A program made the translations under genes and the position numbers. Positions 18,301 to 64,000 of a stretch of 64,000 nucleotides of DNA are shown one piece after another (the first letter of the stretch is position 1; the number at the start of each line of letters is the position of its first letter). Source of the stretch: Branchiostoma floridae (lineage: Eukaryota; Chordata; Leptocardii; Amphioxiformes; Branchiostomatidae). The notes beneath the pieces were generated by a model. The model ran no database searches. It was not told the DNA's origin and saw only the letters and a program-made list of their open reading frames with translations. The stretch covers positions 13,671,822 through 13,735,821 of the forward strand of contig NC_049982.1 in NCBI RefSeq assembly GCF_000003815.2. Direction: 5' to 3'.

Positions 18301-21300
18301 GGGTCAGTACCAAGGACAGGGTCAGCACCACGGACAGGATCAGCACCAGGGACAGGATCAGCACCAAGGACAGGATCAGCACCAAGGACAGGGTCAGCAC
18401 CAGGGACAGGATCATTACCAAGGACAGGTTCAGCACCAGGGACAGGGTCAGCACCAGGGACAGGATCAGCACCAGGGAACAGGGTCAGCACCAGGCCAGG
18501 GACAGGTTCAGCACCAAGGACAGGTTCAGCACCAGGGACAGGGTCAGCACCAGGGACAGGATCAGCACCAGGGAACAGGGTCAGCACCAAGGACAGGATC
18601 AGCACCAAGGACAGGTTCAGCACCAAGGACAGGGTCAGCACCAGGGCAGGGTTAGCACCAGGAAGGCTGTCTTCTGCACCCATTTGGTCATCGCAAGATA
18701 GGAATTTGCTCGATGAGATGCATCCCATATGTGGCATGAAATTGATGACTATGTATTTCTTAATCTAAAAATGACAGATTATCCCAAAGAACAGTGAGAG
18801 ACTATTTCTATGTCATGTATTCCTTTGCGATCAAAATACTTGTCCCAGTTTTCTCTTGGATTGTAATCAATCAACATCTCACTTTTTCCCAATAAATTTG
18901 CCACTGGAAAATCACCCAGAATAGAACTTGTAATGACTAATTTTTTCAGCGACAGGATTATCTTGCCGTATACAAAATTCATAACAGCATTTGCAAAAAT
19001 TGATGTTAGCTAGTATCACTAATGGCTGTGCCTTCCTGATCAGAAATGCTATAATGTACCTATTAAGTATTATCATGAAATTCTCAACTTCTCATATTCA
19101 CCAAAGTAGTTAACATGAAAAAACATAAAGGACATCTGGTAGCTTTTTTACACTTGGTATCTTTTTTCAGACAATGGACACAATGATTGATGATGATACT
19201 GATGATGACAAGACAGATAAACATAAACATAACTTAGTGTCAATCCTGGCTCAATTTTGTAACTGCTCTCTGCAATTACAGCCTAAGATTGAATTTTCTT
19301 CAATGTCATTACAAAGTAGTTTACAATCAAATTTAATAGTAGACTACTTCATGCCAGGATGGAATGCCAGCTTTCAATTCACCTTTATCTGCCTTTTCTG
19401 GTTGTCATGTCTATTTTACATTCATTGATTCCAGGGATTTTGCATAAGTCTTTAAGTCTAAAAATTACACCTGTTTCCTTTGTGGATTTGGTCCAAACCT
19501 ATCTGGTTCCTACTGATTTCAGCAATTTCTGGGGATCCTCATCTGTCACTGTTAGACTTGGATATTGGAAACTGTGTCACCTGACAGTCTGGTCTGCCAC
19601 TTCATCAATAACAAAACAACATCTAGCCTGGATACCAACCTTGCGACAAATCAAATTTTAATTGCGACGCTATTTCCATATACACTAGTATGAACAATTC
19701 CCCCAGGATAAAACAGTCGACATGAAAATAGCTTGAGAAAGGAGTATGATACTCAGCTGTCAAAAAACTAATGAGTCCCTTGTAGGCCTGATGTCTAAAT
19801 GAATGAAATATTACCTGCTGTGCTAATTGCCAATGGCTGTTTTAAACCTGGCAAGGAGAATACTAAAAGCCCACTGGAACCTTGCATGGCATAAATAGAA
19901 CATATAACATTGTCTTTGTCACATAACAAGATATGATACTTTGTATTTGTAGTTATGTTCTTCAGCAACATGATCACTCACAGCAATTATCGGCACAGGG
20001 TTCAAAGGATGGGGTGGGGGGATTCTTTAATATCCTCAAAGAGTAGATAAATGCTGAATGCTGTTGTTGACTATTTTTCATCATAGCACATTTACTTTAT
20101 AATTCTTACCTTGCTTTGCAATACATTACAGATAAGCTACAAATGACAATATATAGGATTTTCGAATACAGGTAGTAATTCTACATGTTACTGACAGGAT
20201 TTTTCATGTCTCGTATTCATTCTTATAAAAATAAACACACTGAATCAACACACAAACATGATACTTCCTTTTCCCACTGTTTGGCAATTTGAACCAGCAA
20301 GATGAGAAAGTACCATGTATATATATGCATTAACACTTCCTCCCACTGAAATACTAATAAGAAATTTCATCTTTCCATCCATTTATCTTGGGTGACAGGA
20401 CATGCCAATTTCCGATACTAAGCACTGCCAGGGACTGGGATCTGTCTTCTTGCCTGAGTGCAGTGATCCATCAAGCTCCATAGCTGTAATCCAACCAACA
20501 ACCTACAGAGGCTTCTCCCCATCTTATATATCATAGCACTTTGGTAGATTGGACATAGACCAAGTAACTTTTGGGTCTATAAGGGTTTAGATCTAATCAT
20601 ATGGAAACAAATTATCTGTTCAAAGATGTGTATTTCTAAGGACCCCTTTAATCACAAAATATTTGAGGGCATTTAAATAAACTGTACCATAACTACAGAT
20701 GGTGAATAAGCAATGAAATGAAAAACCATATAACAATCATTTAATGGCAGTTTCTCCTTATTAAAATCAAACCAGTTCACACCAGCAGCACATGACTGAA
20801 ACATATGACATACAAAGTGCAATAAAAAGGTACAGTCTTCACCATTTCAGTGAGCAATGCTGTTTGGCATTAAGCCAGACTGTACTGGAGTACTTGGAAA
20901 GCACAAAACAACCTTGGTTTACTCAGAAGTTAACATCTTCTTGATGTTACAAATGTACTGGTATTCACAATCCAGTGTTGAAATTACAACAGAAGATCAG
21001 CAGCACAATGAAGAAGTTGGCAGTACAAAGTCTTTAGATTTCAGTGGTGTGGGACAGATTCCTTTGCATGCCATCATGCATAATACATAAGGGAATTGAA
21101 ATAGCTTTGAAAGAAATTTCTTTCTCCTTGGCTACCCATGACTACATAATTGTATTGCATTCAAGGAGACTTGTTTCTTCCATTACTACGTCTTTGTAAA
21201 GCAAGACCTTAAAACGCCTGGACTGGATGTACCATATTTTCTCTATCAAAGTACGCACCCCTATCAAAGTACGCACCTCCATCTTGGGGAAAGACAAATT

Positions 21301-27300: not shown

Positions 27301-30300
27301 CATCACAGGGGCATACTATGATACAAGACCACCATAAATTAAAAGCTTGAAATACACCAGCGTAACCTGCAATATATTTGCCAGCTTTATCAATATTCAC
27401 AAATAATCATCATATTTTTCTCATTTTTCCCAATCCCGCCATGTTTTTTACCAGCCCAGTATACATCTGTTTCATCCTCATCAGTTGTCAAAATATACAT
27501 GCAGCAGCCTTGCCTCAACAAGCAATTGTAACCAAATGGTGCAAGAAATGCAATCTGTCCAATGTGAATCCCAAGGGACAGTTATAGAGGGAATGACTTT
27601 CCATACATAACAGGATAATAGAATTTCAGAAAAGAAATGACGGACATTGCTTTAATACATTTGCCATATTCTGTATTCTTGCTAAAAAATCTAAACAAAT
27701 TGGAATGGTTATTATTCCTCTTCTATTCCCTTTAAATTCTAAAACTAAATACATCTACTAGGAAATCACGCAAGCTGCAAGAATCACCAATGTTGTGGCA
27801 CAATAAAACATTACTAGTGCCAACAAATAAATCCATGCTACATTGTATACACACTGACAGTGGACTCAAAGACCTCTGTATCTATACGACAAAGACAAAG
27901 CATATTCGCCAGTAGAATGTTGCTTACCTTCAGGAACTAGATTAAGGCCCACAAGGAAAATTTCTGGTCGGACAATGGCATAGGACAAAGTCGTACGTCT
28001 TTGGCATACAATGCATCAGGCGACAGCTATCATATGAACCTTCATACGTCAATTAAAGGGTGGATATACGCTAAGACGCTCTCACCTCATGTGGATGCAA
28101 ACCTTGACATTTTGACGGATAAGAAATCATGAACGACCATTAAATCAGACAAAAATTAGACATTGTTACACACAGAAAATAAACCAGAATAGTGTCTGAC
28201 CCTGGTAGTCGTGAAAAACTGCACAGTTTGCAAAATACAAGTCTCCAGATTATAATGGGGGGGGGGGGAGGGGCTGCAAAATGTGCTGTCAACTTTTTTT
28301 CCTTCTAACTTTGCAATCAAGGTCCCAGGGATTGAAATTTAACCATACAAACTTGAAAAAAAAACTAACACTGACGAAACAACTGTGGGAGCAGCTGACA
28401 ACAACAACCAGCAACAAAACAGCATAACAGAAGCATGTTATCACATTCAGATTCTAATGACGATTCACCGATAATACATTTAAAAATTTCGACTGTACAC
28501 CATTGCAATGTAACATGAATTTAACTCCACGACAACAAAAAAATATGAACATGCAATTTATCAGCATTGGTCTGGGATTATTTTTTCTACCAATTCGACA
28601 GGAATTACTGTTGCAATCTTACAGAAATGACACCTGTTTCTTGTGTTGTCTATTTCAAACCCTGTTTCCTGTTAGACTCATGCAGGTGGACCAACAGAAC
28701 AATAAAAACAGAAAGGGGCTTGTTATAATTACCGTATTCCCAAGAGTCCCCATCTGAAAAGCAAAACCAGGAATTAGTGGCAGCTTTGCCTTTGGACCAG
28801 AACATCCTTGATTCAATAACAAAATATTTGTAATACACTGAAGTAAAACAAAAGTGCACTAATTACATACCTATGCTATAGATTTGAATAGGAAAGAAAA
28901 CTCTGGAAAGAGAGGACATTAAGAAATTAGCAACAGTCCAAGTGTTCTTATTTGATTAAACAAGACAGGAGCATGACTAAGTATAAACTACATGTATGCA
29001 TGGCTCCACAATGATATTAATTGTTCCAACAGTACTGGTACAATGTGGCAAGAAGAACCTTGACAACTTGACCATCCCAAGATACGTAGCTCCTACATAT
29101 AAGTACCAGTAAACTCGAACAATAATTTACTACAATCTTCCCTTTGGTACAGTTTTGATAATACACCTGAGCAAAGTCTAACAGCAAAAACCACACCAAT
29201 GTAAAAGCATGTAATTTCACAGCACATCTTGCAGAGAGTGGAACGTACATTTGAGATTAGAGAGTCGCCAAATGTTACCAAACCGTAGGGAGCAGCTGAT
29301 GCATTTACAGTATGTCTTGTTCAGTGAATGCAAAAGACAGTATGGGCCTGCAGCCCTGCACTGAGTAATCTTCTCCTCAACCGCAATTTCAGTTACATGT
29401 ACCTAAGCACAAGACAGGAAACTTTGATCCCATTACTTTAGTGATATTATGCCACGTGGTACCGAATAGGTTGTCTTCTTGAGGATCAAAGCCTGATCCG
29501 TAAAATGCCAGAACACTATTTGATGTTATGTTTTTTTTCACAACTTCACGGTGTCATGTTTTTATCTTATGTAGGGCATAATCAGTATCAACACGCACTC
29601 TATAATTACTTAGAAAATAACCCCACGATGAAAATGTAGATAAAATTATCAGAAACATGTAGCAAGGCACAGGCAAGGGGACAAGGAATAACTTAACCAA
29701 CTGGGTTTAATATGCGAAATACTTTTGTTAATAGCCTACATAGCAATCCATGTACAAGGTCACGTTTCTCCCAATGCTGATTGGTTTAAGATATGCTAAA
29801 ATCCATCAAAAATTGATTGGTAAGAAACCTGAATATACCATGGTGCTAGACTTCTTACTTACACTGTCAGTATATTCGCCAGTACAAATTCTAAAAATGG
29901 CTATACAAGTTGGAAAAATAACACTATTGTAAACTTTGGCTCAAAGCCAAACTGTCCCTAACTGGCCTTAGGTATCTACACTTTATGCACCCATTTCAGG
30001 ACATCATGACGGAAGGTAAATAAGATACATGGCTAGGTCAGAACCAAGATCAGAATCACCCCATCTTATCTCCTACAATGTAACACTTGGCCTTTTGGAT
30101 TGTTTTATTCCAGGCTAGTTCAGGCCACGCTGGCTAGAAGCCAAATAGAAAAATAAAAACCACACCCTCTGGACATAGGGTTTGCGCTATTGGGGATAAA
30201 GAATTACAATGTATAATGTTTATTATAAATGACCCAAAATGTCAAAGGTAACCTGTGGAAAATTTTACTTTGGCTAATATTTGATATATTTGTGTCACTT

Positions 30301-32055
30301 ATTTTAATTATAGAAAAAGTGTTAAACATGAAGTGTTGACTATTGCATGTGACAAGTATGAACCAATAAATATAACACCTTCTCTGAGAAGGACAATACT
30401 TAATTGTGAATTTTACCTTTTAAATTCACAACACTGAAAGCTACTTCTGGACTATTTGTAACCAAACATCATGTGCATGTCCTTCTGCAAGGGACTCTAG
30501 TTTAGTTCCACTTGGATCTAAATGTAAGGGGACTGTTGAACAAGACTCTCTCTAGACCAGATTAGAACTTGTGCCTTCTGGAGACATACCAGGATCCACT
30601 CTCACCTGTGCAAACCACCTGGTGGCACTAATGATTAACTGGCCTTGATATTTGCTCAGCTTTACCTACTCAGTCTATAAAAGCTCTATGAGTTTTCTAA
30701 CTTTTGTATGTGACTCCAGTCAATGAACTTGTCTGTTACATGATACAATCTCCAAACAATTTCCCACAACTTGAGGAGACTCTTAACGTAATTAGGATCT
30801 AAGCTGCGAGCTACTGAGGAAGACCACTGCTTGTCAGATAGCATCTGTTAAATTGCAGACTTTGTTCAAACTTGGAGGCATAGAGATGATCACAGCATCC
30901 AAAGCTTATTTCCATTGCAAGAGACTATAAGTATAACAATTTGATCAGCCAAGGTAATTTCCCTATAACGATCCTTCTGAAACACTGATCTTTGGTCTTC
31001 TTATACAGATTCTATAAATCTACGTTGGTAGTAGGTACATGCTGCATATGCAAACAAACCTTAATAACATTAATATATGGCAACTGTCACTTTATTCTAT
31101 GCAAAACTGTGCTACATTAACTTATGCATGGTCCATGACATGGACAGGATGTCCCTGTCCTTGATCCAGACTGTATGTTGATGAGGTGCATAAAAATAAA
31201 CTTCACATGATACAACACTAACAACAGCCATCAAAATGATTATGGATCAAAGTTGAAAGTACATAGCAAGACAAATAATGAACTTGTGACATCGATGCAA
31301 TACACATGACATATGTTTTTTGCAACCATGTGTCAAATTATCAATTAGCAAAACAGACCACTTCTTGTTGTATTGTATTTGTATACTAATAGTAATACAA
31401 TACGCAACTGCGGGTACTATGGTAGCAACAAAATTTATTACAAAATTTTTCAAAGTTTGGTCTAGCACAAAGACCAGTGTGTCACAATGAGAAAATGTTA
31501 CTTTTAAGTTTGACAATTAAGTTTTCACACCTCGCTCTTACAGATACTGTTGACAGTTGTCGAATGCGAAACGAGTTTACCAGAAACAAGGTTTGAAGAA
31601 CGTTACATGACATAACACAAAAGATGGGGGAGGGGGACGTTGGCTTGTCCAGTTGTCAACTATACTGTGGCGTTATTTCCCAGCATAACAAATGAGCTGA
31701 CGACAAAAAATACACATGTGTTAACATACGATTGATTTGACAGACGGGTACATGGTCACAGTAATGTTATAACGGATATGTGTAGCTAGGAAGTACCTGG
31801 GTCCACTGACAGGTAGTGATGGGGAGGGGCCTCACCTTCAGTAACGTCCTCTTCCACAGTCCCTTTCACCTGGGAGAAGCACCACTGTATGTCACCACCA
31901 CCTGAGGAATAAACACGATATTACATTAGATATTCTTGTATTCAATGTAGCATGTTGCAAACACGTACCTGAAAATGTGATCACCGCGGTTTGTCCAGGT
32001 TGTTGGCTCACTGTCAAATACGGTATTGTTTTTGTACTAGACACCTACCAGCCAT
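348..32055 (-). CDS. PPP2R2: PP2A regulatory subunit B55 (PPP2R2), 5' and central exons, 3' end outside window
   Basis: B55 is a seven-bladed WD40 propeller that brings substrates to the PP2A scaffold/catalytic core (mitotic exit, tau and kinase dephosphorylation; cytosol and nucleus). Coding exons in transcript order: 32049-32055, 31836-31901, 9022-9122, 5667-5832, 1760-1872, 1311-1488, 759 into the N gap at 830, and 348-472. All joins keep phase. Family hallmarks seen include [94 protein letters not shown] and [19 protein letters not shown]. About 300 of roughly 447 residues are encoded here; about 140 C-terminal residues lie left of base 348. The start ATG-GCT-G sits in a 7-base coding exon ending in phase 1, as in human PPP2R2A. 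The exon crossing 831-1037 is partly N. The A/B/C/D paralogue cannot be assigned, as expected for a pre-duplication chordate. Confidence 0.96.
831..1037. other. Assembly gap (207 N) inside a PPP2R2 coding exon
   Basis: The run of N removes the 5' part of the exon whose 3' part (759-830) encodes the [14 protein letters not shown] region. By family comparison about 30 residues between RSF and YSSSKG, including the expected ITAAEFHP segment, are missing. This is missing sequence, not a broken gene. Confidence 0.95.
2830..2885 (+). mobile_element. Terminus of a DNA transposon/MITE, body lost in gap
   Basis: The sequence starts ACTGTAAATGCAGAAATG and continues with GTTCGCGG motifs. That layout is typical of an invertebrate inverted-repeat element end (family knowledge, not a search). 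The matching end was not found because the N run begins at 2886. Confidence 0.4.
2886..3171. other. Assembly gap (286 N) in a PPP2R2 intron
   Basis: The gap begins at the end of a transposon-like terminus (2830-2885), so the gap probably covers the repeat body. Confidence 0.95.
3761..3842 (+). repeat. Tandem duplication, 45 bp period
   Basis: Two nearly identical copies (3761-3805, 3806-3842) share AAGACCCTGCTGGTAACTCA and differ at very few bases, so the duplication looks recent. Confidence 0.85.
3876..3972 (+). repeat. Tandem duplication, 47 bp period, with an inner palindrome
   Basis: Two copies (about 3876-3922 and 3923-3972) each contain the self-complementary core AAGACTTTAAGGTCTT. 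They differ at about one base. Confidence 0.85.
4265..4990 (-). repeat. Old dispersed repeat with internal subrepeats
   Basis: The motifs CTAGGGGG(C/T)CC, CTGCAGTACC and CTCGAGTTAT recur several times at irregular spacing with much divergence. The same vocabulary in the opposite orientation (GGGCCCCCCTAGCGG, GGTACTGCAGCG, ATAACTCAAGAACGG) occurs at 58151-59222, so both are probably one family. Confidence 0.6.
6801..6898. repeat. Fold-back: 46 bp arms, 6 base loop
   Basis: Left arm 6801-6846 and right arm 6853-6898 are inverse complements with two mismatches. They include GATGAAGGGATTTTCCTC and an (ATTT)n run. It lies in the PPP2R2 intron 5833-9021, where nothing else of note was seen. It could be a tiny MITE or could fold as a long RNA hairpin in either strand's transcript. 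Confidence 0.9.
16562..17903. mobile_element. DNA transposon/MITE with TIRs and TA target duplication
   Basis: The left end (TA then CTGTAAGTCTCTTTA) is inverted at the right end (TAAAGAGACTTACAG then TA). Subterminal CGCGGAT/ATTCGCGG motifs occur at both sides. Length is about 1.34 kb. The longest ORF inside (17005-17358, minus, 117 codons) has no transposase motif I recognise, so it looks non-autonomous. Confidence 0.75.
17976..18661. repeat. 18 bp minisatellite, about 37 copies
   Basis: The unit is GGTCAGCACCAAGGACAG with variants (CACCAGGGACAG, GATCAGCACC, AGCAGTAGGAACAG). Because the unit is a multiple of 3 without stops, several frames stay open. The minus strand reads (G-A-D-P-V-L)n inside a 263 codon ORF (17946-18737), and a second minus frame and one plus frame are also long. 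Irregular units around 18470-18500 shift the frame. It begins about 75 bp past a TIR element. Repeat-generated ORFs are the simplest explanation. Confidence 0.92.
22257..22345. repeat. CAGGTACAGGTAC array with inverted half
   Basis: Repeated (T)CAGGTACAGGTAC is followed by GGTCCAAGTCCGGACCTGAACCTG, so the array contains direct repeats and an inverted segment. Similar TGCAGGTA motifs occur at 2455-2775. Confidence 0.6.
22798..22897. other. Assembly gap (exactly 100 N) in the large PPP2R2 intron
   Basis: A run of exactly 100 N is usually a placeholder for unknown length. Coordinates across it are therefore not physical distances. Confidence 0.9.
28256..28270. repeat. Poly-G tract
   Basis: Twelve or more G interrupted once by A, in the PPP2R2 intron. 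Such runs are prone to assembly error. Confidence 0.8.
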
Positions 32056-32290
32056 AATTGTCCTCTACCAAGAATCTTTGACTCCTTGAGATATTCTGTA
32101 GGTGCAGTGTTTGCTCCTAGGGCGACACTGGGCAGAGGATGTGAGCCGATTGTGGCGGGATCCCTCCCAACAAGAAACCCCCGGGCCACAGAGATTTCAA
32201 AATGGCGCACTTCTTGAACACTGCTCGGTGATGACGTCAACAGCACAGCATGTTGGGTAATTCTAACTTTCACTTGCACAGTGGCGGCTG
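32049..32290 (-). promoter_or_regulatory. PPP2R2: PPP2R2 first exon, 5' leader and proximal promoter
   Basis: Read on the minus strand, ATGGCTG is followed directly by a GTAGGT donor at 32048-32043. This gives Met-Ala plus one base, which joins in phase to the GGT-GGT-GAC exon at 31901. The open stretch upstream (to 32279) is in another frame from the start codon and is best read as leader. A palindromic CRE (TGACGTCA) lies at 32232-32239. A five-codon upstream ORF (ATG at 32251, stop at 32237) overlaps it. The transcription start is unknown, so it is unclear whether CRE and uORF are promoter or leader. Confidence 0.7.
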
Positions 32291-32625
32291 CGCCACGAAA
32301 TCCGAAATTCAGAGGAGAATGCTACAGAATAGTCCTCTCTTTGTTGGCCCAGTTTAGTTTCTTTGCTTCACTCCCTTTCTTCCTGTGTATATTTTCTGAT
32401 TTCCCAATACACTCAGCATTTAAACTTTACTGCATTTGGTCCCCAGGCAGTAGACATAGCGATACATCATAACCAAGGAGCTTTAGAAGCTCCTTGATCA
32501 TAACGTAGGCTACCATAGTCCCCGACCCTCCTGATGAGGATGGGACTAGGTGAGGTGAGGTGATCATAACGTAACATGATCCTCCTAGTTGCTCTTTTGC
32601 TGATATAGTCGTCCTACTACACGGT

Positions 32626-32665
32626 GGTTAAAGTTTAAAGTTAAAGTTTAAGGTTAAAGTTTCCG
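32626..32665. repeat. Short AAAGTTTAA/GTTAAAG repeat
   Basis: About five tandem, slightly varied copies of an AAAGTT(T/A)A motif just upstream of PPP2R2. No function is visible. Confidence 0.7.
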
Positions 32666-33648
32666 GCTCATAGTCCCAATGTTCAAGTTTTTCGCGTTTC
32701 TTACGTATACGCACCCGTACGACTGATCACGACTCCTTCGAGCAGGACAGCAGTGAATCGCAACTCAATGAAAGTAGATATGTCGTCATGCATATATTCA
32801 TTATTGCCTGAAATCTACATGAAACGTCACTTCTTAAAAATCAAGGAGGTTTAACCAAGGACAAGAAATTGACTGAGGGAGTAACCAATTTGAATCGGTC
32901 AAAGACTCAAACCAAGGAGCTTTTATGATCTCAATTGATCACGTCACAGATCATTGCTCACAGAATGTACCGAAACATTATTCCAACGAAGTAAGAATAA
33001 GTTCATTGTCCTGTATGTTCATAGCGCTGTTGTCTATCAATTAAAATCCCGAGTTGTTCCCTGATAATCATTTTTCTATCATTATTTTTTCGTGATTTTC
33101 CTGATCGCTAGTAGCGTGCGCGGTTTCAGCCGCGCACTTCTTACCATTTCCTGCGTCTGCAATTGCCCATTCGGATAAGACGCCTCTCACTCTCCGTCCC
33201 ACGTCTTCGCCCATTCTATTACACATTTCGTACGTAGCGGCCAACATCGCACATCATACACAGGATAATCAGATCACTTCAACTTGAAATTTTTCCATTT
33301 CATATTTGTTACATCATTACTTGTCATCTGTTCCAGAACGGCTGCCCTTAAATCACCCCAGTTTAAGTTAAATCTCTATTGAGGAACGTAAACGTTCCCG
33401 TCACTTGGAGTCGCTGAATACGGATAGAACGGGTTGTTAATGTTATGTGAACTTATTTTTCACTTGGCCATCGCTGTCGGTCGGGCATGCTGAGCTGAGG
33501 TACACGATACAATTGAGCACTTGACTGGGAAACTCGGGTGGCTGCTCGATAGCCTCTTTCGCAGACTTCGAGTGTGGCTGGCCGGGCTTTTATTTGGGCT
33601 TGTTCGGCAGTTTCAAAGTTGGCTTTGGTGCTCTAATGCAGGGAAATG

Positions 33649-33712
33649 TAGTTTGCCGAGGAAGTGAGTTTGCCGAGGAAGTGAGTTTGCCGTGGAAGGG
33701 AGTTTCGGGGCG
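33649..33712. repeat. 17 bp tandem repeat, about 3.5 copies
   Basis: AGTTTGCCGAGGAAGTG is repeated three times with small changes in a CpG-richer stretch. Confidence 0.8.
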
Positions 33713-34221
33713 CACAATTTGTACCTGCATGACGTCATGATATATTGTATCCAATCATGCCTAGTTGTTCTTAATCATATGACCTACTACTAGTCTAGTT
33801 AACATAGTTACTAAACAGTACGTCAGTGGTTACGTAGGCACACCCGGTTTATTTGGGGTTTCAATAGGAGGCGGCACACCCTCAACCCCTCAAGTCTAAC
33901 GACCATCTCTTCCAAGGAATTATCCTGAAGCAAAATAACTGTATATGAGGTGAGAGGATATTCCTTCAGCTACAAGACCAACTGAGTTCCGATCCTTCGA
34001 CTTCTCTAATTTTGATAAGTTAGAGGGACAAAATATTAAACATCAAAAACAATGCACAAAATCGGGCATTTTGGCATTGGAGACATGAAGATGATTTTCC
34101 GGCAGACACAACTGATACTGTTAGAAAGAGGGAAACCTAGCGAGTAACGTTACTCCAAAATTCTAGTACTACAGATCTTTTAATGATTTAATCATCCACG
34201 ACGCGCGGCATTGCAACTTGG

Positions 34222-34634
34222 CTTACTCTCCAAGCAGAGGTTGAGTCGCGTAGATATAGTAGTGTTGGAAGGAGGACCAAAGACGGAGACACACAGACAC
34301 ACGTCACACTTGTACGACGATCAAGACAAGACTGACTTTATTTTGAATCACATTACTGGTCGCGTTCTGGCGGTTCTAGAACACCCTTCTCCGAACGGGG
34401 CCACCGCCCGTTCGAGCACGTCGAGTTGTTGTTGTTTACTCCGAAGAAGGGCCGCCAGAACGCGACAGTTACAATAAACAAATTCAAATACAATTACATA
34501 ATATACGATACAATACAATACATAACAGTAGTACTACTAGTAGTCGGTAAAATATAAAATAAATTTTTCCCAGGCCCTGTGTAATTTTTCCGACTTCTAC
34601 ATCTACGCGACTCAACCTCTGCTTGGAGAGTACT
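34222..34634. mobile_element. Small TIR element (about 0.4 kb) with nested inverted repeat
   Basis: A 32 bp TIR (34224-34255 against 34601-34632) begins TACTCTCCAAGCAGAGG. The outer TA on both sides fits a TA target duplication. Inside, GTCGCGTTCTGGCGG (about 34358) is inverted at about 34452-34466, giving a second nested hairpin. No transposase is encoded; the 88 codon ORF at 34211 merely crosses the element. Confidence 0.8.
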
Positions 34635-35130
34635 GGCTTTCGCAGCGCCTCAGAGGTCAATCTAGCCTGTTTACAGCGCGCACGAAGTTTCAGAAATGGG
34701 AGTCGGGCCAAAAACACAATTTGCACCAAAAACCGAAAACACACCATTTCCCATGCGCTTTTCAGCCATGTTAGCGTTTAATCAGTTTGCAGTAAATAAA
34801 GAGAAATGTAAACTCAAACACAGACCCTCAGAAGTATTTCGTCCCTTTTTTTTGTCGCGCACCTCGCCCTTGTCGCGGGAGAACTGAGGTGTGCTCCGTT
34901 GCGGACTTTTACAAATTTGAAGGGGGGATCAGTCATACTGCTCAGAAAAAAAATCTGTACAGTAACGCTAGAAGGCAGATAAGAATAAAGCAGATAATCA
35001 TAATATGATAAATAACATATATTTATATAAATAGAAAAACAAAATAGCACCATGAGTTGAGAAATTTATACACAAACGTTTGATCACACCCATGTTGACC
35101 CACCAGCTGATCACCACATCGTCCGTTCTT

Positions 35131-35233
35131 TTGACGTCATTCGGAAATTTCCCGCCAAAAGAAAAGTTGCGGGATTGATTGCGATGGCTGTTCGAGGCAG
35201 TGCAAGGAGGTTAAAGAAAGAGCTCCTTGGGCA
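35131..35233 (+). promoter_or_regulatory. Promoter-like block (CRE + E2F site) and candidate first exon
   Basis: A palindromic CRE (TGACGTCA, 35132-35139) is followed by an E2F-type site (TTTCCCGCCAAA, 35148-35159) and, 24 bases on, an ATG (35184) opening MAVRGSARRLKKELLG. The ORF stops within 32 codons, so a real protein would need splicing. Using the GT at 35234 the exon ends in phase 2, which fits the Death-domain gene's exon at 37081. That donor (GTGTAA) is weak, however, and the next GT (GTAAAT, 35236) gives the wrong phase. Possible first exon of the Death-domain gene, not proven. Confidence 0.35.
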
Positions 35234-36023
35234 GTGTAAATTCTCTTTTTTCGCAAGATTTTGTCGAGCCAATCATTTATGAGGTAATTACCTCCTTGGT
35301 CGAGCAGAGCCAATGAAGAACGTAAAATGGAAAACCACGGAGGAACAAGGAGGTGAGATTACTAGTAGAGGTCTAAGTCATTTCCACCTGAGCAAAGTGA
35401 GAAAAGCCATGTACACTTTAATAAGTGTACAAACATCGGTGTCACGACAGGTTTTGAACCCAGGAATACAGGGTTCTGGTCAAACAAGTTGCCATTAATG
35501 CCATGTGACCCCAACCTTTTTGGTCACTATTGAACTTTGTATGGGGCTAAAACTTATAAGTTACCCCTTGAGAATAGTTTATTTTCAATACTTTTATTCA
35601 ACCGCTAGTCCTTAAAAGCACACAATGCAGCATTAGAGCATCAAATTGAAAATACTCTGGAGAAGACAATCGGTAGGGTATTGACATTTACTTCACCATA
35701 CTGCTAGCACATTTGTATATTATTTCACACTTTGGAAAGAATGCACAAACATGCCGCAAATGGCTCCCTTTATTTATTGTACCCCACAATAAATTGGCAC
35801 AGGAGCGAGCCACTAAGGATTTCCCATCAGTAATTTTTGGTGATTTCTGAATGTGTGAAGTCACTGAGCACATTGAATCTGATTCGCTTGTTCGCAAATG
35901 GAAACCTGATTTGATCAAGTGATGTTATTGGGTTTTTTGTTATTGGGTGGGCCGACTACTCACTCTTTGCAGCCAGGGGCTGAATTGCAAGGAGCTTACA
36001 ATAGGCGGGGCTAAATCCCAAGG

Positions 36024-36134
36024 GTCTGGAGCGAGCTGCCATTCGGCGCCACTCAGGTGACCTCAATGCGACTGTCGCAAGTGTCTGGAGCGAGCTGCCA
36101 TTCGGCGCCACTCAGGTGACCTCAATACGACAGT
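36024..36134. repeat. Tandem duplication, 59 bp period, beside the SINE
   Basis: Two almost identical copies of a unit starting GTCTGGAGCGAGCTGCCATT abut the 3' side of the SINE at 36130-36425. It may be a tail repeat of that SINE copy. Confidence 0.85.
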
Positions 36135-36425
36135 AATTGCCCCAGGTGCGGCCAAGGTACTGTAGGTTTTGAACCGCTCACACCGCACCATCGCACATGT
36201 GGCGGGTTCTTTAACGAGCCCGGGGTATGGCTCTCCCCAGACACGGGACCTCCATTTAACGTCCTATCCGAGGGACGACTCATTTTCACTTGAGTAAAGT
36301 GAGGAAAGTCGTGTAAAGTGCCTTTCCCAAGGGCACAAGATCGGCAGCACGGCAGGCGGATTCGATCCCGCAACCTCTCGGTCACGAGGCGAACACAATA
36401 CCACTGTGCCACGCGGTCTTCACAG
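36130..36425 (-). mobile_element. tRNA-derived SINE, nearly full length
   Basis: On the minus strand the head reads CGCGTGGCACAGTGGTATTG (A-box like TGGCACAGTGG). About 40 bases later comes GGGATCGAATCC (B-box like), the layout of a tRNA-derived pol III promoter. The body contains GGACGTTAAATGGAGGTCCC, which I believe matches the conserved central domain of a SINE superfamily found across invertebrates and lancelets (inference from memory). A degenerate related fragment lies at about 35375-35500 with TTTTGAACCC and GTGAGAAAAGCC motifs. Confidence 0.7.
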
Positions 36426-36785
36426 AGTCTGATGATATCTCTTGAAGTGGGAATCATCAGTCATGTTTGCATTATACGTCACATCTTTGCTCCATGAAGG
36501 TCCCTATGCAATAGGATAGTGTTATTTAAATTTACTGTGTGTAAAAATGACTTGAAAATGAATTTGAAAAAAAAATTAGTTTCAATGCCTTATTGCCGCC
36601 CTAATATTGCATTGGGTGCCTTAAATTCATTTATTGTGATTTGAAGCTTTTTTTTAGTGGCTAACTACATCGCTGATGATGACAACAAAATAAATTTTGA
36701 ATAACTTCAGTGAACAGTTTTGTGCTCATATTTTACTGCATGGAGGAAAGTTGGCAGCTAGAATAAGATTTTTCAATTACTTACA

Positions 36786-36963
36786 GAAGGAAATTTAAAC
36801 AAAATGCCAGATGAGAAGTACTATTACTTGTTGTTGCCGAATCACGGTGTTGAAGTGTCCAGACATCACTGGATAACTCAGACAAAGCCATGGAGGGTCT
36901 CAATTTTACATTACAGGAAGATCAGTGGCTCAGTTTACGTTGAATTAAACATTACATTTTTAG
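36786..36963 (+). other. Exon-like segment upstream of the Death-domain gene
   Basis: Between a TTACAG acceptor (to 36785) and a GTAAATG donor (36964) lies an ATG (36804) with 53 open codons, starting MPDEKYYYLLLPNHGVEV. Joined to the acceptor at 37080 the frame is wrong, with a stop at about 37151. Joined to the AG at 37087-37088 it stays open (phase 1 plus AA). It could be a 5' exon using that second acceptor, a leader exon with a uORF, or spurious. The peptide resembles nothing I recognise. Confidence 0.35.
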
Positions 36964-37080
36964 GTAAATGTATTTTCATTCCCTTGGTACTCACTAGTAG
37001 TGGAAGATCTTGTCAAAATGTTTAGATGGAGAACTTTAAGGAAATGTACATGTTGCTCTATTTTTATCTTTATTTTTCAG

Positions 37081-39968
37081 TTGTGGAGAAAAAAGAGCCC
37101 CTGATGACTATGACGTGGCAAACAAGAAACAAAGAACTGAACGTTTTATGAGCAAGAGTCAACTACAGGACACTAAGAGTTCAGGACAGTCTGAACCTGG
37201 CAATCAGCTGGTGCCCTACCAACATCTACCAATACATACCTTACATACAGAGAACTTTGAGTGCAGTAACCACAGCAAGATAGAGTTATATTCATTGATG
37301 GTAAAGAACATCAGCAGGAGGTGCACAGCAGTTACTTTAAATCCAATACAACCTGAAAGGATGATACATATCATCCTAGAGAGTGCAGAGGCATCAGATG
37401 AATTTGTACAGCCCTTAGTTGCTTCTGGCTTGATCGAGGTAGACAAGATACAAGACACATACTATTTTGGTGCAGCAAGGGACTGTATTGTTACTGTCGG
37501 TTGGGTAGATAATCTTGATCACAAGGATGATATGTATGGGTACGTTGCTGGACTGGAACAACTAAGCAACAACAAGGAATCCACTATCATAGTGCTTACA
37601 TCAGGAAAAGCAACCAATGCAGGGGTCAAGATGGGGCAGGTCGTACCAATTGGAAACCTGATTTCCTTCTCGAATGATGTTGAGTCTAGAACATCATTGT
37701 TGGGTCCAACATTCAATACCTTCAACCCAGAGAATAAACGCCTTATGGAGTTGTTACATGACCAGACCAGACCAGATGTGTGGTACAGGCAGCGACCCAG
37801 TGCTGTCTGCATGGATACAAGTCAGAATGTGCGGTGCAGTGTAGTTATAGACAGACATCCTATTTTCTTGAGAAAACTTTTGGAACATTTTCGTGGAAAT
37901 GACATCTGTGTGATAGTTGCTATCAATGAAGACATGGAGCATAATGGAGCCATGGACCACAGGGCAATGCAGAATGCCATCACCATGTTGCACACATTCC
38001 TGGCAGCTGGAATAGATACAGGTAGGAGCAGTTAAACAGATTTGTGTGTAGACATTTCACATTAACCCTCAAACCACCGTAGCTTTTTTGTGACGTAGAT
38101 TACCGTATGGGGTCAAAACTGACCCCAAAACGTTTTGTACAAATACAGCTTTTTGTGTGAATCTTTTTGTGATTTGTATATATGTATAGTTTCATTAATC
38201 TATGTGGGACAGTCTGACATGATTAGGTGAGAATACTTCTAGCTCATTATCATAATTTATGCAAAAGATCATGAGGACCACATCTTGCACCAACGCTATT
38301 CAAACCGGGAAGGAGGTTTTTGATGCCAGTACCAACTTCAATGCCATATAGTGCCTGAATGGCTTATGCTAGGGCCACCGAACTTGGTAACTTTTTAGAA
38401 AATGTTAATAGCAAACATTTTCAGTGAACAAAATATGTTCATCATTTTTTACGTTGCCATGGCAACGGAATTCTGACAGACATATTTATCACGAAATTCT
38501 CTAATTTTGTATTAAACATTTTAGTTTTAAGGTTTTCTTGGCAAATAACAATTATTTATCACATCTTACAAAATTCAACATAAATTTCAGGACTCAATAT
38601 TCATAATTTATGCTAATTTGATGACGTCATCAGGCAAAATCCAAGATGGCGACCGATATTACCTAGATGACGTCATAATGTCGTCATATGACATGAAAAT
38701 GGCACAAAAGTTGGTACAATAATTTTGGCTTACATTTACATCATTCTCTGAAAATTTCGTGATCCTACCGGAAGTAGTTTAGGTGTGGGTCGCAAAAGTT
38801 TGTTTAAAAAAACGCTGGGGTCAGTTTTGACCCCACTGGACCATGTAGAAACTTTCGAGGATAACTCAATCAACAATAAGTCAATCTCGGTAAAAACGTA
38901 CAAGAAGTTATAGGACAGATATATAAACAAACTCCTGGAAGGAAATTTGTTTTCAACTAGAAATGACATAATGGCACACATTGATATGTGCCTGGGGTCA
39001 GTTTTGACCCCATACGGTGGTTTGAGGGTTAAAATTGCTGAGAAAATGTTTCTTAGCTTGTGAAATTGTAAGTGTACTACCAGTAAGCCTAAGATTTAAA
39101 AGTGCTGAAAATTACATGTTATTGATAATGAAAGCCAGCTTATCACTAATTGAATATATCCTGTACTGTCACTTGTTCTAAGATTAAATATTTTTTAACC
39201 TTATTTTGTCATTTCAGTGTTTCCTCAGGTAGGGCTGGTCAGAAAAGAGCATACAGAAACAACCTGCAGGCAACTATGTAACACAGCCCACACTGACCGT
39301 ATACGTACCACTGCTGAAATAAAGGTATATTTTAGTTTTCCAGTGTTCTGATTTTGTTTCTCTATCATGCACTATATGTTCTGCTACTGCAGTGGTCTAT
39401 TTTCTATATGCTTCCTCAATTTGTGACCAGTGTAAAATGTGGAGCCAAAAGGCTACCTCAGTGGGTAGATTAATGTGAATTGACTGATGATAGCACCTGT
39501 CGACATGATCTTTGTAGCAAGGCTGATGACCTTTGTTGCATTTTCTCTTGGAGTGAATGGGTTTGAAATTTTGCTTTTCAGTCTCCAACCAGTTACCAAC
39601 TGCCTGAAACTCCGGACTCTCAGCGACAAACTAATACTACAAAGGACATTCCTCCATCAGTTGAGCCGGCACTTATCAGTTCAAACAAGCTTACTGACAT
39701 TCTGCTGCTGGAGGTGGCAAAAAGGTTACTAGCAAGTGATGCTATTGACTTAGGTGTGGCCCTTGGACAAGAACGGAGAAAAGCAAAAAATCTTGTCAAT
39801 TCATGTGGCCAGCAATCTGATGCGGCAGCAGTACAGGAAGTGCTGCATGCCTGGAGGGATTCAGTAGGGAGAAATGCCACTCCAAACAAGCTGATTGATG
39901 CATTAAGGGTCATTGAAAAAACTGATGTTGCGGATCTTGTCCTCTCAAGAGTTACTATGTACTCTTAG
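37081..39968 (+). CDS. Death-domain protein with unrecognised N-terminal region
   Basis: Three exons fit in phase: 37081-38021 (phase 1 out), 39218-39324 and 39582-39968 with stop TAG. The acceptor before 37081 is TTATTTTTCAG. The first in-frame ATG is 37148, giving 455 aa, but the frame is open to the acceptor, so a 5' exon is likely. Residues about 1-330 form a well-conserved-looking mixed alpha/beta region (GWVDNLDHKDDMYGYVAGLE, IIVLTSGKATNAGVKMGQ, DICVIVAINEDME) that I cannot assign. A polar linker rich in T, S and P follows. The last about 85 residues match a Death-domain fold: LLLEVAKRLL, LGVALGQERRKAKNLV, VQEVLHAWRDSVGRNATPNK LIDALR, DVADLVL. Death domains make homotypic contacts in apoptosis and innate signalling, and lancelets have many such proteins. 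No caspase, NACHT, TIR, ZU5 or kinase motif was seen. Confidence 0.8.
38062..39032. mobile_element. piggyBac-like non-autonomous element in a Death-domain gene intron
   Basis: TTAA occurs at both ends (38062-38065, 39029-39032), directly followed inside by CCCTCAAACCACCGTA and its inverse complement. TTAA duplication with CCCT termini is characteristic of piggyBac transposons. Subterminally the palindromic GGGGTCAAAACTGACCCC occurs near the left end and its relatives occur twice on the right (about 38818 and 38994). The left end carries an extra 26 base segment between two CCGTA copies. Length is 971 bp with no transposase ORF, so it was moved by an enzyme encoded elsewhere. Confidence 0.85.
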
Positions 39969-40057: not shown

Positions 40058-40884
40058 TGCTTTAGTACCTGCTCACTGTACAGATTTTAATGGATAGTGT
40101 AATGACTTTTTAGAAGAAATATTGTAATGTTGCAGAAATATTATCAACTGCTCTCTAGAATGGTTTCTTTAGTGAATCGAGGGGGAGACAAAAAAGGTAA
40201 TGAGCTGAAAACATCTCATCATCATAGATGTCACACATGACAATGCTCAGGATCTCTAGACTTGAAATGAAATTTCAGAGGATCAAGGTCACTCCTCTTG
40301 CAGCTTTTGATACTATCCTATGCTACCGTAGGATCTGCTTGGAAATTACTGAGGTCTTCAAAGTAGTTCTCAATGGGTATTTGGTACTACCATTTTCTAT
40401 ATAATACAAATGAATCTATAGGATTAAAACTGCATTTTGATCATCAAACTTCATTTACATCTGTCATTTATGACTACTTCTCTATCAGAAGATAATGAGA
40501 CATTATTCACAATACACACTAGCAATTGACACTTGCAGACCTTTAATAATCATTTAGAACATAAAACAATTTACAGCTTTTCACAGATAGTGTAAGGACA
40601 GGTTTTGTATGTGTACTTGTGAAAGCAAAGAACATGTCTGTAAAATTATGTAACCTTCTTGCAGTGTATTTATGGTCATATAGAATGACTACAGTACTTG
40701 TATAGCTTTCCAACACATTTACATATTTTTTTCTGTAACAATAATACAACCTTTACAAGATGCACTCAAAAGCCAACATTTTTCTGCAAGACCCTCCCCC
40801 CCATCCCAACTGAATCATAATCCCTACTAACACCTTTATCCCCATCTATGCTGCAGAAAATCTTAACTTCTGTAGTGATCCCTA

Positions 40885-43784: not shown

Positions 43785-46700
43785 TTACTTGGAGACATAG
43801 GTGTACGTCCGGGCAGGGGAGCGAGCGGGCGGGTCCGGCGGGGGCACATTCAGGAAGTCCCAGATCAGTATGGTGTCGTCATGGGAACTACTGACAATCT
43901 GGAACTCATCAAACTGTAGTCTGAACACCCTTCCAGAGTGCTCCTGCAGGAAGACAACAGATGTACAGCCAACACATTAGCTACACACTTGGGTTTGGTT
44001 AGATATGATGCTGTCATCTTGATGCTGTAATTTTCATCTTTGACCTCATCAACTAAAATACAATTAAACTGATCAACATTAAGAGGTTGACGGTCTACTG
44101 GTGATCATGACATAGTTAAGTAAGCTTCAAATGTACCTCCATGTTCTTGAAAAACAGAGAAGAAAACTTTACAAAAAGAAGCAATATCAGCACTGTCTTA
44201 AAATGTCAGAAGTTTGGTTTTTAGAGTGAAGCATGACATCTCTCACCACTAGGGTTCTAAGGCAAAGGGTGCCAGCTGGCGCTCGAGGGTCCAACGCTGC
44301 CTGCAAGTCCCACACCTTGATTTTACTGTGAGGAGATGGAAGAGAGATCAGCATGACAAAAACATGAAATTATCCTGAGTCTAGTAAATAAATACCATTA
44401 TCTTTTATCATTTGTCTTTTTCACACATTTTTTTTTCAAAAACTTTTCTGGTTACAAGCTGAGCACAACATCAGCAACTTATGTACGTCAATTATCTTTT
44501 GTAGGACACTGTTAGAAGATCAATGCACTGGTAATGCCCTTACCCATCATATGCTCCACTGACGATTCTCTTGTTGTCAAACCTGATACATCTCACCAAC
44601 TCCTCGTGACCTTCCAAAATACGCAAGCACGCTCCACACTCTATGTCCCATAACCTAGTCAGGAAAGAAAATAAATCAGGTCATATTGTAACAATACATA
44701 CAACATTCACTAACATGTAAAACTCTTTCAATGCCTTGACTTCATTACTTTCACATGAAATAACTCCTATTTCTGATTCATTTGCCATATTTGCCAACCA
44801 GCAAAGTTGTCAATTTCAGACACAAAAATTTTCAATTCAGTTTTCTCATTTAAACTGATCAACATCAATCTAATTTATGAATGAGTCAGTCAAATGATTC
44901 TTCCTTCAAGGCCATCATACTATTTGGAGTGCTAGCTCCTTAAAAATCAAGAAACACCAAGAAGCACAACTGACCTTATGGTGTTGTCTGACGAACCACT
45001 GACAACGAGTCTGTCTCTGTACTGCAGACAGGCGATGCCCCTCTTGTGGCCGTTCAGTGTTCTCACAAACTCACATGTTGATGTGCTCCACACCTACAAG
45101 TAAATCAGTACAATCACAGTCTGCAAGGTGTTCATACATACATGAGGGAAACACAAAGCAATGTGTCATTTTACAGCATGACAGAAATATTTAGTGCTAT
45201 AAACATTGAGATTCTGAGTTGGAAATATGAAACATTCTATTTCCAACAAACACTACTGATGGAAAAGTTCTCAGCCTCACCTTGATTGTCCTATCCCCAG
45301 ACGCTGATACGATGTACTTGTCATCAAAGTCCACCACATTGACGGCAGCCCGGTGCCCCACCAGGACTCTTCTGAGGTTGATGTCTGTCGGGGATTGCAT
45401 GTCCCACACAGCTATGGAGCGGTCCTGGATGGGAGACAAGGATTACATCTTCAACACAAGATTCAATAAAGGTGCTCTATTGTCTACTATAGCAATGGTC
45501 TGATGTGCACATAAAAAAAAGGTTCCCCTAAGTAATCTTTTGTCATAATCATGTGACTACTATGAGTCTTTTCAAATCTGCAAATACCACGGTACATTAA
45601 AATTATTTTCCTTCCCTGCATATTCATCTTGTATGACAAAAATGCCTTTACCTTTCCATTCATGTTGCACATACGTTGGGTTAAGTGTTTATGTGACAAG
45701 GACATGACCATGTTTTTGTTACCTTGGAACAGGTGACCATCATGCCGTGCTGAAACCTGAGATGCAGCACAGCCTCGCAGTGGTGGATCAGTGTGTTCAC
45801 CATCTCACCTGTGTGGACGTTCCACACCCTGCAGGAACATCAGGTGTTAGCAAACAGTGATACAGTTACATTACTTACAAGGGCAGGGATTATCAACCAA
45901 TCAGCACATAACATCATCACCACTCAAGCTGAAGAGGACTGAGCAATTCAGTTGAAAATTCTAGTGAGTCCAGTCTTTTAAGTTGACAAAGACTTAGGAC
46001 TTATCAATCAAGGATGGCCAAATCATGTTATAACTTATATCATATCCAGGCTCTGAAACAAAATGAGATGAGTTCACTTCCCGCACCTGACTGTTGAGTC
46101 GCTGGAACCAGAGATGATGACCTGGTCGTCGTACTGTAGGCACAGCACCGACCCAGTGTGTCCAGTCAGCACCTGCACACACTCCAGGTTGTTTCTATCC
46201 CAGATCTATCACAAAAGAGACACAATTCATTTGAGTACAAATCGTACAATATTCCATTTTTCAATTCAAAATACGCAGTGCATTTTTCGGATCTTAGAAC
46301 AACTAAGACTTTGAGTTATGGACAATGAATTTGTTTTCACATTTGCTTTGTTCCACTGAATGTCATCCACTTTTGTATCCACCAGACAGAATGTAACTGT
46401 CTATACTGGGCCCTCTTGGGGATCAACCTTTACAAGTTATAGGGGCAACCCAATTGCCTTCAAATAAAATAAATAGATAAGGTAGATATCAATAGCAATA
46501 CTTATTCCTAACTTCCTTGGTAGAGCCAAATATCATTATTTCCATCATTCTGCTTGAGAACACCTTCGGGCACCTGTTTAGGAATCTGTTGTTTTGTACT
46601 GACCTTGATAGTGTTATCTCTAAGTCCACTGACAATCTTGTTGTCATCATACTGGAGACAGTACACCCCCTTGCTGTTCTCACTTCGGCACTGTATCTTC

Positions 46701-49700
46701 TGTAGGTTATGTCTGCCACACCGCCAGTTTGTCTCTATTTGCTGCAAGGGGCAGATTGCAAAGGGACTTATGTTAGACTGACGTCAGATCATTCAACCAA
46801 AACAGTTTCTTTCAAGGTAAGAGACTGGAAAATGGAACAAGACATAAAGTTTATCTTAATAATGAAACATAATTCATCTAGGGCACAAAGATAAATTGAC
46901 TTGAATATGAATAAACTGAAGACCTTTCAAATTATTCATATCGACCCGAGGGTCTCAAAAGACACGAAGTTCTACAAATCACTTTTGCTAAAGAGAGGCA
47001 ATGATAAGTATACAATGTACCTCAATATCTTGTATAATCCTAGGGTACAGTTTGCGGTAGAACTGATGGTTGGGTTGCGTTTCCCCTGGCTTTGGTCTGA
47101 AGAGATGTTGTCCCCTGTGGAAAAAGAAAAAGTAGAATTCATTGACACGAATCAATATGTTCTTGTAAGCAGACTATGATTGCTTACTTTCCAACAATCT
47201 CTATTTTTGTGATCACCAGACAAACACTGTAAAATCTAAGGACAAAATTTTGGGCTAATACCTGTTATCTAACTCTTTCTCCAATCATATCTCTCAACAC
47301 TGTTAACTGAAGGGACTACCCTAAAGATCAATCAATAAATAAATAAACTGTCATGGTTAGAATCAGACTTGAGGGTATGATAAAACAAGGACAAGTTTTA
47401 CCTGCCCCAATTCCTAGCTTCATACAGGATTCAAACATTGAGAATAAAAAATGAAGACAATGTAAAGCTCCTCACCATCCCCTGCGCTCTGCCAGCCCTT
47501 TCCACAACGGATCCGTCAGCACCATTCTTTCTATTAGCTTCTTCCACAGCATCCCATCAGAGATGACCCGGTACCACTCCTTGCACACCAGCTCACAAGC
47601 TGACAAGGACTTGGCGTCCAGGTAACTCAGTATTTGTTCTGCTACATGGTCTAGGCCTTTCTCTGCAAGAATACAGTCACATAATCAGGACTACTGGTCA
47701 GCCAGTCATGAATATTTGTAACACTGTCATAGAATTCTAAGGAATCTAAGAGGGCATCTAAAAAGATCATGGGAATAGAAGGCATCCATTTAACAGACTA
47801 CAGTCAAACCTGCCCGAGCGACCACCTCTTCTCAGCGACCACCTGGCCATTTCGACCGCTTTTTCTCGGTCCCGATTTTTTTTCCTATTGACGTAAGCAT
47901 TAAGCGACCTTTTCTCAACGACCACCTGGCCAACGCGACCGCGACCAGCCCAAATTGGGCCCCTTAACGACCGCATCATTTTCAAAATTGAGGTTTTCAT
48001 CGATTTTTTATGATAACTAGCGTGATTTTGTGGCGAAATCGACCAGTTTGCGTCGGATTTTGACTGCCATTGCGATGTTATGTTTAGAATAAAGATTGCG
48101 GCGGTCAATGGGTGGGTCAATGGGGCAGTCTACTGTAATATGGGAAGAAATTTCTAAGAAAGATCTGTGTAGCTCATACCTTTTAAAGAAAGATCTGTGT
48201 GAGTGCTTTTGTCCAACTGTACTGTACATTCACCCTTGGGTAAGTACGCGATTGGGACGTACCAGGCATAGAATTCGTAGTTATTTCAGATACGGCGATC
48301 AAGAACACATCGACGCATAAAGGCTTGTATGGTAACTGACAGCATCAAAGTTCCCTTACTGTCTAAAACGTTAGTCTACAAATATTATACTGTATCGTAT
48401 AAAAGCTGGGGTTAAATTTACAATTTACAGTGTGCGTGTTGTATTTGACATTAAAGACCTCGCTTCTTTGCGTGCGTGCAGTGTGCTTGCTATTTGCCAT
48501 TAAGCACAACGGAAACCGTTATACTTTGCATAGGGCATGATTTGAGTCGATACTCTTCTCAGCGACCACCTGTCCAAATCGACCGTTTTTGTCCGGTCCC
48601 CCGGGTGGTCGTCTTGGGCAGGTTTGACTGTATTAGTTTTTAACATCAAATGCAGTCACAACAGTATCAACAAATACAAGGCTGTGAAAAGGCTATATTG
48701 GAAGGTTTCCCAGGGCTGTCACCAGCTTTAGTTTTTTCCAAGCTTACAAAAAGGTAGCATAAGCTAATAAAAATGTATTTTCATGTCATAAAGTTAACAC
48801 TAATGTATGTCAACTACTTTTGTCCATCCCCAAGCAAATTTCTATCTCGGAACAATAGGGCTGGTCCTGTTGACAGCCATGGGTTTCTCTCTCTAGCTAG
48901 GAAAATGAAGGCAGTTTAAGTAATGTAGACCTACTGGGTAATGCAGTAATGAAGTCTCTCTGCAGCATGGGCTTGAGGAAGGCATTGATATGTCCATGCT
49001 GGTAGTGGCACATTCGAGATATCAGTTGCTCCACAAAGTCCAGCTGGTCCTGTTCTGACCATTGTTCAAAGTACTTAACACACAAGTCTCGCTCCTCCTC
49101 AAAATTCTCGGGCCGCTCTCGCTTTTTCTGGATTGGCTGAGCTAGGATGGTCATCTGTCGTAACTGTGCATATAAAATAAATTCTACTATTAACAAAACT
49201 ATTCACAGTTTAAGCCAACAAGAATCAATGTACATGTATAACAATTACTGCAGAAAGACTTTGATACACATAAAATATTGTGTTGGACATGAACTGCACT
49301 TAACTTTAAGTCTTCTTTCACTTCGAATAAAACTGCTTGATATTATTATCAATGCTATGTTGAATAACTTGCATTTTATTCAAGCTGAAAGTAGTTGGTC
49401 AGTAGTATAAATTTTACTTAATTGTGATCATTGTTAGTGTTTAACATTCTGTTGTACTAGTGGATAACAGGGAACATAATCCTTGCAGACATTTTTAAAG
49501 CTTCAAGCCAGGCAGTCTATCTCAGAATGACTTCCATGCTGTGTCACCCCATGGACTGGCTGCATTTTAATCACTGAGTAGTCATGTGATCAATATTTAT
49601 CCAATCAGCATAGATCTACTTTGTTTACCAAGGTCTGCATTTTCATCACTGGTACTTTGATCGTCTTGAAATACAGTCCCCCTTTGATGCAGTAGAATAT

Positions 49701-62355: not shown

Positions 62356-63733
62356 TCACTCCTTGATGCGGCCACCATCACCCTCGCTGACGAAGCGCTT
62401 GCGGGCCCTGAGAGAAAATATCAACAGGTGAATGCTGACTTTTGGCCCATTGAATAACAATGAAAGGTGGAATGGTACATAATTGGTTTTCTCCCCTTTT
62501 TTTTATCAAAATAAAAGGCATAAGAAGCTCACAGTCTGGAATAACATGCACACACACACACAAGAATGTGTCAAACTGTTAACTGCAGTATCAGTGACAC
62601 CCTAAAAAGGAACCAGTATGGAGAACTGCTGACCTGATGGGCACCTTGGCCTTGGTGCGACTGTTGATGACTCCCTGCTTGAAGCACTCCTCAGAGAACC
62701 TCTCCAGGATTGTGTGGGCATTGGGCACATCAAGAACTATGTCAGGCATGGACTCAAACACACGGTCAAAGCCCTGCGAAGGAAGAACATGCACACCATG
62801 AAACAACAACAACTGGTTGTCCACAGACATTCTTAAACTTAGCTCAATTTAAAGCAAACCCCACCCTTTCTACTGCTTTTCATTGAAAAGTTAATTGTCT
62901 TAGGTGAACTGAGAAGTGTTGCTCTTTTGAGTATCACATCCTAATCTCATTTATTTATTTATTTAGGGTTACCCCTAATCTCATTACTCTATGAACACTT
63001 GACAATCACTTCAAGACACAACTGTTCAACAAAACACTGTGTGGCTTGACATATCAACTGAGATACTCCTTTTCATCCCTATCTTATCACCAGTAGATAG
63101 CTATTTCAAACTTTTGTAAGCTATCACAAATGGCAGCATCAATGGCAACAATTGGAAAACCTACTCACCCTGTCCATCTGGTCCACGGTAAGAATGATTG
63201 CATCAGCGAGAGACTTAAGCAGCATGAGGATTGCAGTGCCCACCTGTTCCGACCCTGCCTCCAGCACAGTCACCACGGCCTGGAGGAAAACATTCATTTC
63301 ATTTCAATGTACCAGACCAATCTACAGAATTTTGTCCGTCACTCTCATTGTTTTGGAGACAATTTTGTTGATTTTAGTTGTTTTAACAATTTTATCATTT
63401 TGCTTGCACATCACTACTGCCCTCCGTAGTCATGTCTGTTATTCTTCAGCATATTTAAGACCATACTCGCATGAGCATGGATACATGTATCATTTCCAAC
63501 AGTTTGATTACAAATTAGTTGTTATGGTGTTGTGCACCACGGGCATGATTCTAATACAACACTGACAAACAATCCAGCATGAAATTGGATGAACTCCATG
63601 TCCATTACATAACAGTGGTGCCCCACCTCATAGACGAGCTCATGGTGGAAGTGTGGCACCTCCAGCTCCACCAGACAGCGGGTGGCCTCCTGGATGTCCC
63701 GGGAGGACAGGTACTCCCTCAGGAGCATGTCAT
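62356..63733 (-). CDS. PDCD4: PDCD4, last four coding exons; 5' part beyond the right edge
   Basis: PDCD4 is a tumour-suppressor-type translation inhibitor whose two MA3 domains bind eIF4A. Exons in transcript order: 63627-63733 (phase 2 start, preceded by an exon outside), 63169-63279, 62634-62773, 62356-62407, encoding 135 residues plus stop. They cover most of the second MA3 domain ([96 protein letters not shown]) and the conserved tail [15 protein letters not shown]. Human PDCD4 continues a few residues further (LKPESY in place of IKE). The N-terminal S6K/beta-TrCP degron region and the first MA3 domain are outside the window. The gene runs in the same direction as beta-TrCP, 7.7 kb away. 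Confidence 0.96.
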
Positions 63734-64000
63734 CTACAGGCACAACCACAGATGAAAACAACTTTATTTGGAATGTTTATTTACAGGCAAAACATTATTC
63801 ATCTACAGGTGAAAACACTAATGAAAATAACCTCAAACATCCATATCTGTACTGTTGTAGAACTGGATTTAACAACATCTCACATTTTTTTTGTTAATAC
63901 TGCACTTTCATGGTCAAAATTTTTTTGGAAAGCCATTCCTGTTCCTGCACAAACCTCTCACCTAGAAACATGCTTGACTTTCCATGTCACTAATGGAAGT

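Follow-up and report, generated by a model that had tools for sequence, protein, structure and literature searches.

A Lancelet Gene Predicted to Join an N-Terminal Part of No Recognized Family to a Divergent Death Domain

Death-domain adaptors connect sensing to cell death and inflammation. On the plus strand of a 64,000-nucleotide stretch of Branchiostoma floridae DNA (the window; C4:13671822-13735821), a Death domain appears to end a reading frame whose longer first part resembles no familiar module. What is this first part, does it belong to the same protein as the Death domain, and what might it do there? We analyzed the locus in terms of the following features.

37081..38021, plus strand: exon A, 313 N-terminal residues (open frame; acceptor TTTTTCAG/T, donor ACAG/GTAGGA)
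Exon A, residues 1 to about 80: polar tail; basic cluster spanning residues 4-18 (located by a pattern of our own definition)
Exon A, residues from about 81 to 313: mixed alpha/beta-like core
38022..39217, plus strand: intron 1, which holds an inserted element
39218..39324, plus strand: exon B, a linker of about 36 residues, required to keep the frame
39582..39968, plus strand: exon C, with the remaining linker, the Death domain and the stop codon (PF00531 match, profile test and alignment)
39687..39950, plus strand: Death domain proper (limits approximate, set by eye)
39747-39941, plus strand: Pfam Death stretch within exon C

Joined in frame, exons A, B, and C give 477 residues, lacking the 5' end, with canonical splice dinucleotides throughout. 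The open frame that contains exon A extends over 37040-38035; in the gene model, its first codons (about 14) and its last four are intron. From the local stop frequency, 331 open codons at this place have a probability of about 7e-9 per start. The A-B-C join was open in 12 of 96 GT/AG combinations, and a direct A-C join in none of four. The only Met of exon C is residue 475 of 477, and the Death domain must therefore be spliced to an upstream coding sequence. In a codon scan that was rough, because its training set comprised exon A itself and no more than six further open frames, exon A showed coding-like codon use and scored 43.5, and a stretch over exon C (39600-39944) scored 29.0; weaker plus-strand stretches lie upstream at 34202-34423 (17.1), 36020-36121 (14.4), and 36329-36439 (16.1). 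A 59-base tandem repeat (1.9 copies, 36019-36131) is also present upstream of the gene. Scanning of 30000-37081 for an ATG followed by an in-phase donor scoring above 5.5 did not yield a 5' exon; the two candidates obtained were just 9 and 2 residues long, and a frame at 36762-37022 had no match in Pfam. Downstream of the stop codon, hexamers resembling poly-A signals (AATAAA or ATTAAA) occur at 40423 and 40885. From these sequence features, we infer that the three exons belong to one gene. The preliminary description had given the N-terminal part as 330 residues; a long part is indeed present, its length now corrected to 313 residues from exon A and some 36 from exon B.

The element inside intron 1 (38062-39032, about 970 bases) has perfect 20-base terminal inverted repeats, inner inverted repeats of 26 bases, TTAA at both ends, and no long frame. 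It resembles an element of the piggyBac type.

Exon C matched PF00531 with an E value of 5.8e-7 and 30.0 bits (Pfam cut-off, 22.6), over profile positions 20-82 of 86. With a separate profile built from nine other Death domains of the same genome, exon C scored 31.1 bits and ranked first of 3001 sequences; the best of 3000 shuffles reached 15.3. The C-terminal Death domain of the preliminary description is thus confirmed. Its first helices align just loosely with lancelet Death domains (an alignment from which L001 was left out). No match to exon C was obtained in NCBIfam or PADLOC, and Pfam hits to DUF5797 (E 0.053) and NPM1-C (E 0.17) were taken as chance.

We searched the whole genome (513,431,437 bases, 431 contigs) for Death domains. 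A first look gave 588 candidates, and all 150 that were scored lay above the Pfam cut-off, in line with the expanded lancelet repertoire that had been claimed at the outset. A count published in 2007 is given as 139 for B. floridae (PMC2246300), and Death-type domains are described as widely recombined in lancelets (PMC2575513, PMC2246300). The exon C domain is absent from the 150 scored places, the lowest of which reached 50.4 bits; its own score is far below their range of 50-73 bits. In a single-sequence search, the nearest Death domain of the same genome was that of L011, a lancelet Death-domain/ankyrin protein (28% identity, E 0.007), whose other parts have no significant similarity to the exon A N-terminal domain. 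Among solved structures, a single-sequence search placed the THOC1 Death domain best, albeit weakly (E 0.03). Among 50 chains obtained with a five-sequence profile, made from the exon C domain and four other lancelet Death domains, FADD ranked first, followed by RIPK1, ankyrins, THOC1, and PIDD, and TRADD came close to last (E ~5e-4); because the exon C domain contributes just one of the five sequences, this ranking describes the group and not the exon C domain. We conclude that exon C, judged by its sequence, holds a true but divergent Death domain that is close to no particular family.

The proteins that this ranking brings up share little else with the lancelet gene. FADD and RIPK1 head the profile list, but no death-effector domain and no kinase was found in the lancelet gene with Pfam. 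A ZU5 followed by a UPA before the Death domain defines the group of UNC5, ankyrin, and PIDD, and neither has a Pfam match in the lancelet gene. NLR/STAND proteins differ in a similar way, as the modelled part (the frame without its 5' exon) has no NACHT/NB-ARC match and no Walker A motif (pattern G-x4-GK[ST]). THOC1 also carries a C-terminal Death domain behind a large N-terminal part; however, the lancelet N-terminal part has no THOC1 family match (Pfam, E up to 10).

The hydrophobic runs that had first drawn attention to the N-terminal part (TIIVLTSGKA, CIVTVGWVD, and DICVIVAINED) are all encoded by exon A. The impression that this part matches no known module held throughout the library searches. 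Whole exon A matched no Pfam family at E values up to 10; divided into four pieces, it gave MerR_2 alone (E 0.12), which is at chance level. NCBIfam, PHROGs, and PADLOC gave no match beyond chance, and a search against solved structures gave nothing convincing, hits to alphaRep (E 0.23) and dextransucrase (E 0.92) being taken as chance. Ideas formed by eye (FAM124/VOC, caspase, TIR, NLR, ZU5-UPA, DHFR-like, and nucleosidase) were set aside, as the Pfam and PDB searches brought up nothing in their favor. No relative of the N-terminal part was found in prokaryote, viral, phage, and plasmid collections; the viral collection was queried with residues 80-313, and the prokaryote and viral contig searches detect close relatives only. 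These collections hold no animals and are silent on animal relatives. Among the open-licence papers listed in literature searches, no title or beginning of an abstract dealt with this gene, which has no name to search by.

A structure model from the single sequence, without relatives, had a mean pLDDT of 35.8 and a pTM of 0.24, too low to show a fold. It nonetheless agrees loosely with a crude propensity plot in placing an alpha/beta core after the polar first 80 residues. A folded alpha/beta domain in the N-terminal part is no more than suggested, by the sequence and by the low-confidence model. The modelled part contains no membrane-like stretch (maximum 19-residue hydropathy, 1.25).

When the 513-Mb genome was searched with whole exon A, the exon found itself alone. 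The second half of the N-terminal part likewise gave one copy, a further match at E 8.6 being taken as chance. With one copy by either query, the N-terminal part does not belong to a lancelet expansion, as far as seen, and on these searches it would be an orphan module. The gene is flanked by two minus-strand genes, one for a PP2A B55 (PPP2R2-like) and one for a beta-TrCP (BTRC/FBXW11-like) protein. Several other features were noted in the window. The beta-TrCP-like gene (43788-49157) has an F-box and a beta-TrCP D domain above the Pfam cut-off; its WD40 repeats fall below the cut-off, yet are identified as FBXW11 by solved structures. About 13.5 kb from it lies a PDCD4-like gene (MA3; 62633-63749, minus strand); vertebrate PDCD4 is a beta-TrCP target. 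A PBDC1-like exon at 56910-57038 matches PF04669 (E 1.8e-10), with no match among solved structures. An 18-base tandem repeat (17974-18660, 37.8 copies) leaves several frames open on either strand; its long frames are probably artefacts of the repetition.

What, then, could the protein do? A Death domain at the end, behind a longer first part with no library match, points to an intracellular signalling adaptor, and the lack of a membrane stretch, a Walker A motif, or an enzyme match in the parts modelled argues for a soluble one whose N-terminal domain binds something else. We put it at about an even chance that a single gene here encodes a soluble intracellular Death-domain adaptor with a partner-binding N-terminal domain. 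The mechanism, which we derive from the Death domain alone, would be as follows. The Death domain would bind another Death domain, on a receptor tail, a kinase, or an NLR-like or caspase-linked protein, through the usual homotypic contact; the N-terminal alpha/beta core would sense or bind a different partner; and the protein would thereby recruit this partner to a Death-domain complex. It may also enter the nucleus by way of its short basic cluster. Of the two roles offered in the preliminary description, receptor or adaptor, the second is plausible and the first finds no support in the modelled part, which is without its 5' exon; additional domains, such as a membrane segment, may lie upstream.

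The N-terminal part may instead be quite ordinary: a conserved animal family, with relatives in other lancelets and other deuterostomes, for which the libraries searched contain no model. This possibility, which we would not bet on but take seriously, is compatible with the adaptor function. The gene stands as a single copy between conserved PPP2R2-like and beta-TrCP-like genes, as such a family might, unlike the clustered TRADD-N genes discussed below. The point against it is that widespread animal families are usually covered by Pfam. That the N-terminal part is a previously undescribed globular domain, confined to one lancelet gene and coupling a ligand or partner to Death-domain signalling, appears rather unlikely to us.

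A more specific proposal is that the gene is the lancelet counterpart of TRADD, a receptor-to-TRAF linker in which an RRM-like TRADD-N domain, diverged past recognition, would precede the C-terminal Death domain. TRADD-N followed by Death is the order described for TRADD (PMC8195603), and large TRADD-N expansions in lancelets are reported by Kaur and others (PMC8195603). The lancelet gene shows the same order of parts, as known here from sequence, with a mixed alpha/beta-looking N-terminal part and then the Death domain. In addition, the low-confidence model and the propensity plot can be read as a crude element order beta-alpha-beta-beta-alpha-beta, perhaps twice, which fits an RRM-like fold, and TRADD-N genes are abundant in the genome (77 PF20694 matches). 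Our Death-domain locus is missing from these 77 matches, however, and Pfam gave no match to the TRADD family; no TRADD-N domain is detectable in the gene. A two-fold repeat inside the N-terminal domain found no support, its self-alignment scoring 26 against a shuffle mean of 27, with 177 of 300 shuffles as good.

We also gathered 46 TRADD-N segments (30 of the 77 PF20694 matches and 16 further). Three profiles were made, two from sets of 11 and 19 segments, representing two clades, and one from 9. With one clade's profile, 24 of 500 shuffles scored above the N-terminal part, and the other clade's profile did not report it at all. With the third profile, it was outscored by 194 of 3000 shuffles and by 5 of 55 other open frames (a comparison made for this profile only, with frames from L001-L013, some of them of the same locus, L009 and L010). 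In two profile tests, the N-terminal part thus ranks among the top 5-7% of the shuffles, which is not significant; hhalign aligned residues 69-88 with the beta2-beta3 turn in one lancelet TRADD-N profile, again not significantly (probability 0.3%, E 0.21). Several TRADD-N registers drawn by eye along exon A were not supported. Unlike single-copy exon A, the TRADD-N genes are clustered, on C17 and C215. We regard a TRADD counterpart as improbable; TRADD-N domains diverge so widely that a structure could still reveal one in exon A.

In the course of these comparisons, we observed that open frames L011:1411-3210 and L015:1069-2568 (minus strand) have a segment in common, with 58% identity across 102 of the 119 residues queried. 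In L011, this segment lies after the Death domain and ahead of the ankyrin repeats; L015 starts with a Death domain, by eye. The segment looks TRADD-N-like by eye only, and Pfam makes no call there in L011.

Could exon A end one gene, and exons B and C belong to its neighbor? The frame of exon A stays open as far as a stop codon at 38033-38035, AATAAA or ATTAAA hexamers occur within the intron at 38511 and 39183, and a gap of about 1.2 kb with an inserted element separates exons A and B. The donor of exon B is also weak (score 1.2, compared with 5.3 for exon A). Against two genes, exon C offers no start codon before its Death domain, exon A is the best non-repeat stretch of the plus strand in the codon scan, and one frame is kept across all three exons. 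We consider such a split improbable as well, and prefer a single gene for a putative adaptor. Finally, a nuclear, THOC1-like role in RNA or chromatin biology, outside death-receptor signalling, likewise seems improbable to us: THOC1 is the best single-sequence structure match, if a weak one, and a basic cluster lies near the start, but basic clusters are common, the THOC1 N-terminal family match is absent, and FADD, RIPK1, and ankyrin stand above THOC1 with the five-sequence profile, which says little given its make-up.

The Death-domain gene is at present a lead, not a discovery. As a single-copy gene in which a Death domain would be joined to an N-terminal module without a family, it could reveal a new input to the pathways of cell death and inflammation; alternatively, it could reveal a piece of chordate signalling that has been lost or disguised in vertebrates.
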